Shown here: positions 3,141 through 8,226 of the stretch, piece after piece
How positions within the stretch are numbered: position 1 is the stretch's first letter
Layout: each line of letters starts with the position of its first letter
DNA from: Butyriboletus loyo
Taxonomy: Eukaryota > Basidiomycota > Agaricomycetes > Boletales > Boletaceae
Length of the DNA: 40,492 nucleotides
Assembly (NCBI GenBank): GCA_038093515.1
Contig: JBBPSI010000218.1
Span: forward strand, 1-40,492
Direction of reading: 5' to 3'
Program-made: the position numbers and the translations under genes
The notes under the pieces: generated by a model
What the model was told of the DNA's origin: nothing
Seen by the model: the letters and a program-made list of their open reading frames with translations, nothing else
Database searches by the model: none

Positions 3141-3846
3141 TGCCAATCTTGATGTGTAGGGGCTCAAAATGTTCCTAGAGATGTGCTCTATCACACAGGG
3201 CTTTTATGTGGCGCGTCTAACCGCCGCATTTCGACAACATGTTGAAATGCGGCATGATCAATCATTTCTTGGCATCATTCACTCATTGTATCTCTGCTCC
3301 TCCACCATACTGTCCATGTTCATGAGCAATCTGAGATTCTTGTATTTGTTGACTGTTGTCACATCCACCTCTCCCTTTGCCTTCTTCAACTCCTTCTCCT
3401 CAACATCTTCTCCTGTATCAGGCTTAGCTCCAACTCATCAATCATGATCCTCATTCCAATCATGCCCCCAACCAGGATGTGGAGATGTGAAGATATATGG
3501 GCAGACCAGATGGTATAGTAAATGAACTCCAATAAAACAACGACACCGCCTCATTTTGACAGTGTGGTATTGTATGTTAACTTGGGTTAGACCACAACAT
3601 CGCCGCATTTCGACATGCTGTTTAAATGCGGCGATGTCATGTTTCACATTAGACCATGTGGTATCATCAGATCATGACACCACCGCATTTCGACACACTG
3701 TTGAAATGCGGCGATGTCATACCACATATTGGAACAGGTGGTATCATATGTTAACTACAATTAGATCATGACATCGCCGCATTTCAACACACTGTCGAAA
3801 TGCGGCGGTGTACATCTATTGTGTGTGCACGTGGTCTGTACATTGA
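3141..3846. repeat. Palindrome cluster I (four GCCGCATTTCGACA palindromes)
   Basis: Four related 31-33 bp inverted repeats lie at 3223-3253, 3601-3633, 3681-3713 and 3775-3807. Each has arms of the form GCCGCATTTCGACA and TGTYGAAATGCGGC around a short centre. The last three are 80-94 bp apart. Their linkers also match each other (GATGTCAT, GTGGTATCAT, GATCATGACA), so the unit is palindrome plus linker. A half copy is visible near 3546-3566. The rest of this stretch is CT-rich and holds no convincing gene. Confidence 0.85.
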
Positions 3847-4461
3847 CTACTCGATTCTATGGCGCGTTCTAGACGATGGCCCAGGTTCTCCGTCATATGG
3901 AATAATGATGAGGTCGTCGCTCGAGGCGGGTTCGACGTCGATGTCTTCATGGCGACGCTTCCCTAGTGCCGATACAGATGTGATGGAGAATGGGTTGCTG
4001 TCAATGAACCCGCGTGTCTGGACCCAACCTTTCTGCAGGAGTCCCTTGGCCGTGTGTTCTCCGGCCAGCGTCACAACCGCGTCATAGGACCCATAGCTGT
4101 CGTGGTCAAGCAAACATCTCTTCACGCTGTTCCACTTGATCAATAGCTCCGTTGACGAGACAGGGTTCATGTCCAGCTTCCATCTGGCCCCTTTGTAAAC
4201 CTTCTGTGTGGCAGGGGTGGCAAGCCTGAAGCGCATGAGCACGTTCATCAGAGAGATCCCCTTGGAGGCTGTGGAACAGGGTGAGGTCAGAGGGCGCGTC
4301 GGTCCACATGCAGCGTGTGACTCACTGTGCTTGTCAAAGAACATCTTGACGTCATTTTTCTGTTGTGTCGTTGCCTTTCCGAAGTTCACATCAGTGAGGG
4401 CGTGCGACATAGGTGACCTCTCATCCATAACAGATATAATAAAGGTGGAGACCATCGTCAC
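3847..4461 (-). CDS. Hypothetical protein, about 204 residues
   Basis: This is the longest open frame in the left repeat region. I do not recognise the product. It has a moderately charged composition, a central TQKVYKGARWKLDMNP stretch, a basic KRRHED patch near the C terminus and no visible signal peptide or membrane segment. The reading frame is blocked by a stop just upstream (minus-strand TGA at about 4473), so translation would start at the first Met or follow an unseen splice. It lies between the two palindrome clusters, which suggests it belongs to, or was carried by, the repeat unit. It could also be a remnant of a larger gene. Function unknown. Confidence 0.35.
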   Translation of the reverse strand: MTMVSTFIISVMDERSPMSHALTDVNFGKATTQQKNDVKMFFDKHSESHAACGPTRPLTSPCSTASKGISLMNVLMRFRLATPATQKVYKGARWKLDMNPVSSTELLIKWNSVKRCLLDHDSYGSYDAVVTLAGEHTAKGLLQKGWVQTRGFIDSNPFSITSVSALGKRRHEDIDVEPASSDDLIIIPYDGEPGPSSRTRHRIE

Positions 4462-4995
4462 AAAGGGCGTTCCAGTTCATCCATCTTTATCCTCATCCCA
4501 ATCATGTCCCCCAACATCTCCTTTTTATCCTTCTCCAATTCCTCAATCCTTCCCATACTCACAATATTCCCCTTCCCCTCACTCAACCATTCAACTATCT
4601 CCACCTCCCCATTACCCATTGATCCTTCCCCCTGATCTTCCTCCATCTCCACCTCTGCAACCTCATCAACTTCCATCACATCACAACTTCTTTCTCCACC
4701 CCCCACTTCCTTCGCGTCCTCTTTCTTCTTCTCTGATCCTTCATTAGTATCACGAATGTAATAGCACAATATCACTTACTTATCATATCCAGCATTCTGC
4801 GAGTTCTTGCTTGTCTCTCAAGCATATCGTTCGAGTAGAATTCGTCAGACATGGTGTCTCGGATTGATTCAGGATCTGTCACTTAATTCCTTTTCTGACA
4901 TCAATCAATTGTGACATTCATCCCAGATCCATCTCCGCGGCTCACTAATTCCTAATTTGGTATGTCACGGGATTCATTTTATATACTGACACTGT
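4462..4995. other. Pyrimidine-rich tract, no convincing gene
   Basis: About 4475-4740 is strongly CT-rich on the + strand. The Glu/Lys-rich frame on the minus strand there (4458-4775) is best explained by this bias. Part of the tract (about 4476-4510) resembles about 3442-3475, sharing 'CCTCATYCCAATCATG.CCCC'. That makes it another duplicated segment of the repeat region. Confidence 0.5.
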
Positions 4996-5656
4996 GCCAC
5001 ATCTCGACATTGTGTCGAATTGCGGCAGATATTAAATGGACCCGATGAAGCATAGGGTTGTGCTTTGATACTGCGTTGGTAGATACATGGTCCACACATG
5101 GCCATCCTAAACACACGAAACACACTGATACATTGGTATAATAGTTGTATTTTGCATTTTGACCATAACTTGCTCAAATGTTGACGGATTTTCATGAATG
5201 TGGTCTTGTTTTGAAGCTGACACAAGTACCAATACATATGTGGCTGTGGAGTGGCCGCATTTCGACACAGTGTCGAATTGCGGTGTTTTTGCTCATTTTT
5301 CTCTCATTCTGTAATGTATGCATTTAATATGTGCCGCATTTTGACATCATGTCAAAATGCGGCACATATTAAATGGGCCTGATGAAGCACATTATTGCAA
5401 TCTGATATTTAATATCTGCCGCAATTCGACATAATGTCAAGATGCGGCATAGTATTGATGTACTGTTTCTGTCAGGATCCATTTAATATGTGCCGCATCT
5501 CGACATCATGTCGAGATGCGGCACATATATATTACGTGTTGAAGCGCCGCAATGCGACATCATGTCAAGATGCGGCACATTTCCAATCATTAATCATTAT
5601 ATGTGTCAATACTCTTGTCATAAGTTGCCGCATCAATGTAAATGTATAATTGCGGC
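4996..5656. repeat. Palindrome cluster II (seven members)
   Basis: Seven palindromes of the same family lie at 4996-5026, 5254-5284, 5332-5364, 5418-5448, 5492-5522, 5546-5576 and 5627-5656 (the last strongly degenerate). Most share the GCCGCA / TGCGGC ends and a GACATNATGTC centre. Several are embedded in longer symmetry with ATTTAATATGT on one side and ACATATTAAAT on the other. The best one, 5321-5375, is a perfect inverted repeat with 27-bp arms and a single central base. Flanks ATTAAATGG and GATGAAGCA recur at 5031-5056 and 5368-5391. I see no gene in this stretch. Confidence 0.9.
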
Positions 5657-5732
5657 AGTGTAGTGCTATTATAGATCAGGCTAACCCGGCCTAACCCTAA
5701 GGTATTTAAGAAAACAGTGTAATATCGCTAGA

Positions 5733-5740
5733 TATATAAA
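5733..5740 (+). promoter_or_regulatory. TATA-like box upstream of the hammerhead
   Basis: TATATAAA begins 34 bases before the first paired base of the ribozyme at 5767. The spacing fits transcription starting just before or at the ribozyme. The call rests on sequence match and position only. Confidence 0.4.
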
Positions 5741-5766
5741 CGGTGCGTCGGCTTTCTGACGTTCAC

Positions 5767-5851
5767 TACCACCAAGGTCTGATGAGTCCCGCTGGGGACG
5801 AAACAGGATGGATTGACGGCTTGGATGCCCTCAGTCCTGTTACCTGTGGTA
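5767..5851 (+). ncRNA. Type I hammerhead ribozyme
   Basis: All invariant parts of a hammerhead are present in order. CTGATGA is at 5779-5785, stem II pairs 5786-5790 with 5795-5799 (loop GCTG), and GAAA is at 5800-5803. Stem III begins with A5803-T5840 and pairs 5804-5808 with 5835-5839; it can extend through 5814-5820 with 5827-5833. The cleavage triplet is GTT at 5839-5841, which obeys the NUH rule although GUC is commoner. Stem I pairs 5775-5778 with 5842-5845 and, after a two-base bulge (C5773, A5774), 5767-5772 with 5846-5851. The RNA enters and leaves through stem I, so it is type I. The stem I bulge and stem II loop are placed for the usual tertiary contact. Predicted cleavage is between 5841 and 5842. 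The nearest protein gene (6082-8226) is on the other strand. Activity is inferred from structure. Confidence 0.88.
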
Positions 5852-6081
5852 AATCCCCACTCACGCAGTACTAATCACCGCAACTCCTCGCCTTCGGCTC
5901 GTCGTTGCTCCCTCCTAACCTAGATTTATGGATGTGAGGATGCTTGCAGGAACTGGCTCAGGTAAGTTTGGGGTCCTACCCCGGCTACTTCCGAAGGCTC
6001 AAATTTTCAATCGCGTTTTCCGCATCGTTTTGCAAACGGCTGTAACGAGCGCAAGTCTGAATACCAGGTATGTACTATGAT
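5852..6081 (+). other. Downstream sequence of the hammerhead transcript
   Basis: This stretch has no ORF of note. GTGG at 5846-5849 can pair with CCAC at 5857-5860, which would compete with the outer part of ribozyme stem I. A strong splice-acceptor-like TTGCAG ends at 5949 and a strong donor-like GTAAGT starts at 5962, bracketing a possible 12-base exon. CTAATCAC at 5871-5878 resembles a branch point. Whether any of this is used is not visible. Confidence 0.3.
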
Positions 6082-8226
6082 CTAATTCCTACACTTGGAT
6101 CGACGAATGTCAGCGAGCATAAAATCATCATGCGCTGCTGTAATATTCTTCCCATCAAGTGCATCTGGTGGTCGCGTTACTGTTGTAGTGTTCACATGCG
6201 CTGGGTATCGTGCCTCTCCAATCCTTCCCGACCAGTCAAAGTCAACGATCATTATGCGCTTGTCCGTCTCCGTCTTTGATACCATGAGATTCACATCACG
6301 GATGTCACCATGGACGAAACCAGCTTCATGGAACTTGGTCAGCTTCTCTGATATGTCAGTGAAGACCGATGGTGGAAGATGCTGCTCGCGGGCCTCGAGA
6401 GTCTCAAACCCACAGAGTGCGTCGAAGGCGACCATGAACCAGCCACCAGGGATTTCGTCGATCCCTCGCAAGACCGGGGCACATCCGAGAGAGGCTAGAC
6501 ATTGATGGGCGTCGAAAGAATAGGTTCGAGCGAATTTGACACAGATTTCATGTTTGTTCTCGTCAGTTGCGAAAAAGATTAGCTTCTTTTCGACTACTGC
6601 CTTCTTGTACTGGAACCTTTTTGTGGTTTTGTCCAAAATTGATGTTCCTGTAATACTCTTCCAGCATGTGAGTAGCTCTGCGAAAAGCAGCCATGTGACG
6701 TGCCACGGTAAGTTGGTTCTGGGTATCGGTGGAGTGAAAATGAAACGCGATGGGCGTCGACAGCACTTGTATGGTCGGTCGCAAGTTCCAGGCAGCGCCG
6801 GCGAAGACAATGTACGGCCCTGCAAAAAATCGGTGGAACCAAGAAGATTGACAGATTGACGGGTACTGACCGAAAATAGCGAGGAGCAAACATGGAAGAG
6901 GAGACCTTGGGTGCTTTGCGGCGAGCTCCCTAGTTGACTCCAGATAATATGCTATAGCTTCGAAATACGGTTCCGCCGAAGTACTCCCGGCTTCGTTCTT
7001 GAACTCAGCGATCACATAGCGATGTCCATTCACTGACATATCCCCGTCTACCAGATAATCCGTCTTTTGGATTTTGGAGATTGTAAAATGGATCTGATGA
7101 CGCCCGAGTGCCTCGTTGAGGAATCCAACCCGCTCTGCTTCACTTTTGTATAAGTTCGACATGGCGATCTCGAGATCCTTGGCAAGGCGATTGTCGTCGG
7201 CCGTGATCTCGATGCTCTGACAGTCGTCGACGAACTGACCAAAGACAGGGTGAAGTAATGTGGTCGGGATCGTTTCTTCATCCTCATATTTGTTATCAAG
7301 AGCACGACCGCAGGGAATGAATTTGTGACCCCTCTGTCGCGTCCTAAAAGAGGAAGGCGTGCCGGAGGTAGAGGGCTTGTCCTTTGGAGCGTGTGTGAGG
7401 AATTTAATTCGAGCGCTGGCGATCAGATCCCCGCTCGCAACAGAACGATACGCCGATGGAGGAGGTTTAGCCACGCCTGGAAACGTGGGTGAGCACCATT
7501 CTGCCTTATGAACGTCTGACTTACTTTCATCAAGCCACTCTATAGCAACACCTGGGTGCTCAGAAAAAGGAACATCGCTGAAGGCCGTTCCTAGGAGCTG
7601 GCTTGCGTGCAAGAGCTGCCCAATTCCAGTAGCGCTAAGAATTTCGGGGAGATCTTCTTCTGTGGTCGAAATCTTGTATAGTTTCAAGGATTGTACAGGT
7701 ACGTCAGCGAGGATCACCTGTTGCTCTGCCTTGATTGTACTCTTGAGCAGATCAACCCGTCCAAGTGCTGAGGCTCCGACCACAAAGGAGGAATCACTGT
7801 CAACTCCTCGAAACCAGCAGCGAACTGCCAAAGTTGGGATATCTGCAGAGGCGAACGATGATCGTCGTGGGTGTCAACTTAAACATATGAGTGCCACATA
7901 CCGATGACGAGGTGGAGCTGCCCTTGCGGGATTGACTCGAAATAAGTCGATAGCGCTCGCGTGGCCCGCAACGGTGTACCCAGCATAGAGATTGAGAAAG
8001 TACCAAGAGTATCTTCCATGGAATCGTCATCAGGTACTGGAGTCTCGTTGGGGACCTTATGGAGGTGCAATGATGTTGGCCTTATCGACAGAACCTCGCG
8101 TTTAATGATGCAATCTTTGAGCTCTCCGACCGTCGTTTCTGGGGAAACAGCTATGGTCCCCCAATCTCCAAAGGGATCTCCGCGTACCCAATAGCAGAGT
8201 GACCAGCTGTCCATGGTGAAGTTCAA
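6082..8226 (-). CDS. Crinkler-type effector: two header-like domains, PD-(D/E)XK nuclease, kinase-like domain
   Basis: Secreted or translocated Crinkler (CRN) proteins are described as host-cell or inter-organism effectors. Exon 1 is 8226-7902 and encodes a ubiquitin-like CRN header (LCYWVRGDPFGDW, then SLHLHKVP). A 59-nt intron (7901-7843) follows. Exon 2, 7842-6871, starts with a second header-like copy (LAVRCWFRGVDS, QSLKLYKIS). The nuclease core is TDYLVDGD with AEFKNE, giving candidate D, E and K residues near 370-390. A 51-nt in-frame intron is likely at 6870-6820 because the family reads AIFGPYIVF across it. The kinase-like part has VKF, HGDIRDVN and DFDWSG (DFD in place of DFG). The frame changes between 6700 and 6647. 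Compared with the copy at 28355-29167, about 68 bp are missing there. Either this copy is frameshifted, or a 52-nt intron (6699-6648, weak donor, CTCAC branch) keeps it open at 660 residues. The domain calls are firm; integrity is not. Confidence 0.75.

Follow-up and report, generated by a model that had tools for sequence, protein, structure and literature searches.

The window analysed here (40,492 nt) is contig C218 of the 30.3-Mb, 420-contig genome assembly of Butyriboletus loyo (GCA_038093515.1, contig JBBPSI010000218.1). It carries a type I hammerhead ribozyme, designated HHR-A, at positions 5767–5851 of the forward strand, in which the core is complete, all three stems are present, stem I has a bulge and the predicted cleavage site is GUU^A. 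The outer part of stem I pairs TACCAC (5767–5772) with GTGGTA (5846–5851; 6 bp) and the inner part pairs AGGT (5775–5778) with ACCT (5842–5845; 4 bp), with a 2-nt CA bulge in the stem. Direct reading then gives, on the same strand, the catalytic core CUGAUGA (5779–5785), stem-loop II (GUCCC-GCUG-GGGAC, 5786–5799) and a segment made up of GAAA (5800–5803), stem-loop III and U17 (5800–5841 in all). Stem III comprises 6 bp between ACAGGA (5803–5808) and TCCTGT (5835–5840), and U17 lies at 5841 in the triplet GUU (5839–5841), so that cleavage is predicted at 5841^5842. The architecture (6+4 bp stem I, bulge, 6-bp stem III) and cleavage position proposed in a first-pass annotation of this DNA are thus borne out by direct reading, and the architecture also by a descriptor search.

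Sequence and structural evidence for the hammerhead

The descriptor, which required CUGANGA, GAAA, UH and all three stems, found a single site when both strands of the window were searched, compared with none in 1,000 dinucleotide shuffles. The core motif alone is insufficient evidence, as CTGATGA-N5-30-GAAA is no more frequent in the genome (699 matches) than its reversed control (805 matches); genome searches throughout scored the best candidates only, and every genome count given here is a lower bound. Additional support comes from a sister family, HHR-B (see below). A covariance model built from five distinct HHR-B sequences alone matched the window site with 26.5 bits (E = 5e-4; the runner-up had E = 3), and in a search over 110 kb the same model recovered it at E = 0.0014.

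Across eight distinct HHR-A and HHR-B sequences, 99.2% of 133 cells were paired, compared with 32–54% when partners were slid by one to three columns (in alignment A2, the row A_C89 is without its final columns). Four pairs showed changes on both sides, every one of them in stem I. None of 500 column shuffles matched the observed percentage paired, the covariation score or the count of cells with two-sided changes, while two of the five covariation measures were equalled by shuffles (changed pairs in 105/500, further pair types in 117/500). The compared sequences represent only two families, and hence few independent covariation events. Taken at the sequence level, 5767–5851 is confirmed as a real type I hammerhead with predicted self-cleavage: the CUGANGA/GAAA core is accompanied by an NUH triplet, and all three helices are there, with the open end at stem I and pairing maintained across relatives.

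The HHR-A unit and its copies

The ribozyme is embedded in a 5′-truncated copy, ~200 nt long (5723–5922, forward strand), of a repeated unit with 87–100% matches elsewhere in the genome. A 321-base query recovered the unit at at least seven further places (C135, C26 twice with one copy cut by the contig end, C208, C60, C175 and C89), six of which have a further ~400 nt upstream in common. The core and cleavage triplet are kept in 8/8 copies, so that one refuting condition named in the first-pass annotation, a core not conserved in other copies, did not arise. These copies represent three distinct sequences, one of them 87% identical with GUA replacing GUU. Because six are near-identical, the kept core is weak evidence of constraint, and the search pattern itself required CTGATGAGTC, making conservation of that part a matter of construction. 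The loci examined contain 25 hammerheads (HHR-A, eight; HHR-B, 17); the upstream neighbour of HHR-A is either HHR-B or other DNA, and no tandem direct HHR-A copies were found in these loci. In the 646-nt unit on C135, the longest stop-to-stop stretch is 75 amino acids.

Several further features of the unit can be recognised on the forward strand of the window. Directly upstream of the ribozyme lies TATATAAA (5733–5740), a possible promoter (TATA) element judged by its letters, with the HHR-B counterpart CCTATAAAG in a similar position. Downstream are a terminal UUCG hairpin (GCAAC..GUUGC, 5880–5908; an interrupted fold of −8.8 kcal/mol), which was not obtained for the C89 copy in the stretch tried, and a conserved 3′ terminus, CCTCCTAAC (5911–5919), which is shared among unit ends and is the complement of a GTTAGG-type telomere strand. 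On its 5′ side the unit abuts a separate, subtelomere-like repeat containing CCTAACCCTAAGG (5640–5725), with matches at ten further places that span the query from position 1 to 83–89. The locus on C86 has its host flank in common with the window, but the A tail is reduced there to its final ~54 nt (junction CCTAACCCTAAG), upstream of which an HHR-B end is fused, as would be expected of successive end additions.

A sister hammerhead family and a Penelope-like reverse transcriptase

HHR-B has the core layout CUGAUGA-GUC-AUAU-GAC-GAAA and at least 34 matches in the genome, fragments included. Rfam at threshold reported none of these hammerheads in seven 10-kb loci, and the copy on C128 has lost core G12. 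Arrays near contig ends mix HHR-A units with HHR-B, and a reverse transcriptase (RT) is encoded at at least four loci in the genome, all on contigs with HHR-B matches. The link to a retroelement suggested by the first-pass annotation is in this way supported from elsewhere in the genome, where arrays are shared with coding Penelope-like elements that bear the sister hammerhead.

The RT is of Penelope-like type, having a telomerase-like predicted fold (obtained from an alignment of 46 database proteins; the single-sequence version had a predicted local distance difference test score of 32). No Pfam match to the GIY-YIG endonuclease was found in any of 26 members of the RT family, a negative of limited sensitivity given that Pfam misses the RT itself in 16/26. 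A profile search of solved structures with the element protein gave nothing significant (best E = 0.3), and none of the four RT loci was among the places listed in a genome search with RVT_1 (best 150 of 424 candidates). On C304 and C81 the RT is a single open frame of 1,239–1,240 amino acids, and a spliceosomal intron in the gene was rejected on this basis, the frame on C208 being broken by a one-base difference. Among the loci of all eight HHR-A copies, an RT was found on C208 only, where HHR-B units follow downstream of it and the HHR-A copy is ~2.2 kb away; this RT locus, the sole one with both flanks examined, is bounded by HHR-B units. Pattern searches for relatives elsewhere returned 29 matching stretches on viral contigs and 53 on bacterial or archaeal contigs, none of which was confirmed.

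The 5′ HHR-B unit of the C208 and C304 copies (L033 ~9874, reverse strand) misses ~58 nt, including the hammerhead 5′ half, between AG|GT repeats. This gap could be a spliced GT-AG intron containing the ribozyme core or a short-repeat deletion.

Telomere-like ends and array orientation

Units of both families end in a UUCG hairpin, perfect in HHR-B and interrupted in HHR-A, followed by (C)CUCCUAAC. CTAA-type repeats continue 13 of the 28 A and B unit ends, compared with 18/161 other CCTAA sites of the same loci (Fisher P = 4e-5; the repeat pattern was picked once the ends had been inspected, and the background excludes sites with CT in front). Telomere-type 3′ ends are found in part of the HHR-B copies, with those on C81 and C26 abutting (CCTAA)n. 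Throughout the assembly, (CCTAA)4 occurs on three contigs only, namely after the HHR-B end on C81 and C26 and after the end of a third hammerhead family, HHR-C, on C68. On 13 of the 15 contigs counted, the 5′ sides of the arrays point to whichever contig end is closer, C316 being opposite and C26 mixed (the count omits C99, C335, C310 and the 67-nt fragment C86:44428, and C151 enters by a 46-nt tail fragment only). Hammerhead units also form a head-to-head palindrome at a contig end (C26:186876–189917), which may be a real fold-back or an assembly artefact.

A type III hammerhead family on C68

A genome search with the Rfam Hammerhead_1 model yielded at least seven weak matches, none above the cut-off and three of them on C68; equally weak matches were obtained in 11 of 14 control genomes. 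HHR-C (C68:1–1541 and 3331–3850) is a type III hammerhead with an RF00008 score of 39.7 bits (E = 9e-7; cut-off 48.5), and its minimum-energy fold is the hammerhead itself. The HHR-B covariance model did not match it significantly (E = 1.5). Two copies are spaced by exactly 925 nt within non-coding units arranged head to tail, with a longest stop-to-stop stretch of 85 amino acids, and a third is at C68:3629. Every unit carries the UUCG hairpin and CACTAAC, and two of the three ends run into (CCTAA)n, the third into the next unit. These are non-coding tandem units bounded by hammerheads, as in retrozymes, and judged by its layout HHR-C is retrozyme-like with a telomere-type end attached.

Group I intron of two coding copies

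Inside the 5′ HHR-B unit of the coding Penelope-like copies on C208 and C304 lies an identical 906-nt insert, identified as a group I intron (C208:42146–43051, reverse strand; L033 8902–9807) by RF00028 with 90.7 bits, above the cut-off of 50. These were the sole group I matches reported in the genome, the search having scored the best 26 of 713 candidates. U is the last base of the 5′ exon and G that of the intron, and P1 pairs at 13/14 positions, exon ACCU included. The insert has the conserved core and a P1 that pairs with the exon and places U.G at the splice site, and it may be self-splicing. The loci examined contain 20 CATATCCAAC sites, 17 of them uninterrupted, two with the intron and one an inverted piece. 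The C208 and C304 copies agree over 126 nt before and 1,927 nt from the insert start, with differing 3′ flanks; given this agreement, and with each contig stopping a short distance upstream, the two may in part represent a single element assembled twice.

Neighbouring gene and other features of the window

Directly beside the 3′ end of the element unit, two overlapping frames on the reverse strand (6082–7831) form a Crinkler/kinase-like host gene, recognised by protein relatives and a match to the Crinkler N-terminal domain PF20147, which is not part of the element. Its named relatives are mainly from fungi that we take to be Boletales, in agreement with the fungal host read earlier from the letters. 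The same Crinkler gene flank occurs at C86, and the HHR-A unit on C135 abuts a weakly kinase-like frame. Upstream in the window, 3223–5576 holds ten near-perfect palindromes, GCCGCATTTCGACA..TGTCGAAATGCGGC (24 arm matches in the window compared with ~4 by chance), possibly a small inverted-repeat element family, and degenerate tandem TGTAGACTTTT-like repeats occur near the contig end (1532–1845).

Interpretation and alternative explanations

Probably, the window copy is a solo, non-coding, 5′-truncated 3′-terminal unit of a telomere-attaching, endonuclease-less Penelope-like (Coprina/Athena/Terminon-like) system, in which the hammerhead would process the RNA. The hammerhead, its sister families, their common ends, the telomere-like junctions and the RT loci on the same contigs are established as features of the sequence. 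Under this interpretation, a unit consisting of a possible TATA promoter, the hammerhead, the terminal UUCG hairpin and a CUAAC end would be transcribed from that promoter, and RT made by HHR-B copies would bind the 3′ hairpin. The RNA tail may then pair with an exposed GTTAGG-type G strand, such that the chromosome 3′ end primes complementary DNA synthesis; frequent early stops would leave 5′-truncated copies, and distal addition of the next element would build head-to-tail arrays. The hammerhead would cut read-through or tandem RNA at 5841/5842, parting the upstream transcript from the 3′ tail. As no RT frame belonging to HHR-A was found in the assembly, the HHR-A unit probably depends on RT supplied in trans for its mobility.

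A number of observations weigh against this interpretation. Concerning the ribozyme, Rfam at the gathering threshold gave no match in the window (a library criterion that is not part of the fold), a permissive scan of 5400–6200 returned only a type III match in the wrong register (15.6 bits, cut-off 48.5), the unconstrained minimum-energy fold (−37.4 kcal/mol) differs from the hammerhead (−34.5 kcal/mol when forced), and the four stem III pairs counted show no variation among the eight A and B sequences. The covariance-model check put forward in the first-pass annotation failed for Rfam and succeeded for the model built from the genome's own HHR-B sequences; we take the Rfam outcome as counting against the ribozyme without refuting it. 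Concerning the ends, 15 of 28 units are without a telomere-like continuation, and the window copy reads CCTAACCTAG into host DNA, where CTAG continues the unit end and a telomere repeat is thus not seen. (TTAGGG)3 is absent from the assembly; true telomeres are therefore not seen, and CCTAA-type repeats served as the marker instead. The contig ends may simply be repeat breaks. A further 78 nt separate the cleavage site from the conserved HHR-A 3′ ends, so that genomic copies reflect uncleaved tails and do not point to cleaved RNA as template. Concerning the RT, a tblastn search with the element protein had no match in the window, consistent with the earlier view that no coding retroelement is present there, and we accordingly speak of the window copy as a non-coding unit belonging to the system and do not call it an element. 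Nowhere in this assembly was HHR-A seen next to an RT frame of its own, so that arrays and ends in common are what connect it to the RT. The first-pass annotation held that the host unit would be non-autonomous or undescribed: the former agrees with the occurrence of RT only on C208, with HHR-B, whereas the latter does not hold, the Penelope-like kind being already known.

Two alternatives concern the relationship of HHR-A to the RT, and we regard both as rather doubtful. HHR-A could be a distinct non-autonomous, telomeric retrozyme-like family comparable to HHR-C, moving via self-cleaved, perhaps circular RNA and using the Penelope-like RT or telomerase in trans. The HHR-A unit has no RT and no stop-to-stop stretch above the length given for C135, and the 925-nt HHR-C units, with two of three ends running straight from hairpin and CACTAAC into (CCTAA)n, provide a precedent; however, retrozyme-like tandem direct copies of HHR-A were not found in the loci examined, where HHR-B or other DNA lies upstream. 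This possibility overlaps the Penelope-like interpretation and is not exclusive of it. Alternatively, HHR-A could form the 3′ terminus of a further autonomous Penelope-like family, the RT of which is absent from the 30.3-Mb assembly. An identical layout in HHR-A and HHR-B (TATA, hammerhead, hairpin, CCTCCTAAC) would fit this, as would the position of the arrays at contig ends, where sequence gets lost, but all of the at least four RT loci are on HHR-B contigs and the C208 locus is bounded by HHR-B units.

That the window hammerhead is a decayed relic without function seems unlikely to us: the copy is 5′-truncated and isolated, and the C128 copy of HHR-B is without core G12, whereas core and triplet persist in every HHR-A copy, an argument weakened by the near-identity of six of them. 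Chance resemblance, to which the missing Rfam match and the commonness of the core motif might point, has a negligible probability given the shuffles, the match by the other family's model and the pairing kept over eight distinct sequences; both this and the relic reading rank below the Penelope-like interpretation.

More tentatively, and with less than even confidence, the chromosome ends may be colonised by a community of ribozyme-bearing units, comprising Penelope-like units with type I hammerheads, 925-nt retrozyme-like units that carry type III hammerheads and terminate in (CCTAA)n, together with a group I intron. The intron would most simply have entered Penelope-like RNA by reverse splicing and then been copied by the element's telomerase-like RT.

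Comparison with known systems

Gladyshev and Arkhipova reportedly described in 2007 endonuclease-deficient Penelope-like elements at telomeres (Athena and Coprina). The apparent likeness to these comprises a telomerase-like RT without GIY-YIG, subtelomere-like position, C-rich telomere-like 3′ junctions, 5′ truncation and head-to-tail arrays. Unlike the endonuclease-less elements described with two open reading frames (PMC6431247), C304 and C81 have one frame. Terminons of bdelloid rotifers have a 3′ hammerhead and, after it, reverse-complement telomeric repeats, for which pairing with the G-rich overhang has been proposed (PMC6431247). They resemble the units described here in the hammerhead near the 3′ end with C-rich repeats after it, the 5′-truncated copies and the head-to-tail arrays, and differ in that the host here is a fungus, a UUCG hairpin stands between ribozyme and tail, and no giant accessory-gene cargo was seen in the partly covered flanks of RT copies. 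Penelope-like elements at mushroom chromosome ends have also been published (PMC7473861).

The hammerheads of Penelope-like elements are described as minimal motifs without helix III or tertiary loops (PMC7761336, PMC6155905). The arrays here share with them the type I hammerhead in terminal units and in tandem, but in HHR-A stem III has 6 bp and stem I is bulged. HHR-A may be the same as the stable monomeric variants that Cervera and de la Pena are said to have noted in 2014 among fungal Penelope hammerheads. As Penelope and Terminon hammerheads and Terminon end attachment have been published (PMC7761336, PMC6431247), the window finding is not new in kind. In vitro, the RNA of an anole Penelope-like element was inserted with no ribozyme cleavage needed (PMC11167929), in agreement with the uncleaved tails of the genomic copies here.

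Plant retrozymes carry type III hammerheads (PMC6155905, PMC4918200, PMC9695139), as does HHR-C with its non-coding tandem units, although HHR-C is fungal and has a telomere-like 3′ junction. The nuclear home of group I introns given in a review is eukaryotic ribosomal RNA genes (PMC3073962); the insert described here agrees with nuclear group I introns in its RF00028 score, U/G exon and intron ends and exon-pairing P1, but lies in a retroelement 5′ unit. Searches of the open-licence literature returned no title or abstract opening that names either a Penelope-like element with a group I intron or a fungal telomeric retrozyme, and the mix of hammerhead types with a group I intron looks unusual.

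Implications

Rfam thresholds overlook two fungal hammerhead families, HHR-A and HHR-B, and a third, HHR-C, scored below the cut-off. Together, these families bear on the unsettled question of why Penelope-like elements keep hammerheads; with their alike ends (hairpin and CUAAC), they offer natural comparisons for the role of the ribozyme in end attachment. The presence of an intron in a retroelement unit alongside 17 uninterrupted copies, i.e., empty sites, makes spread by reverse splicing and reverse transcription directly testable. If the broader reading of a ribozyme-bearing community is true, it would provide a natural case of a self-splicing intron spread outside ribosomal DNA via a retroelement, and of telomere-anchored retrozymes.
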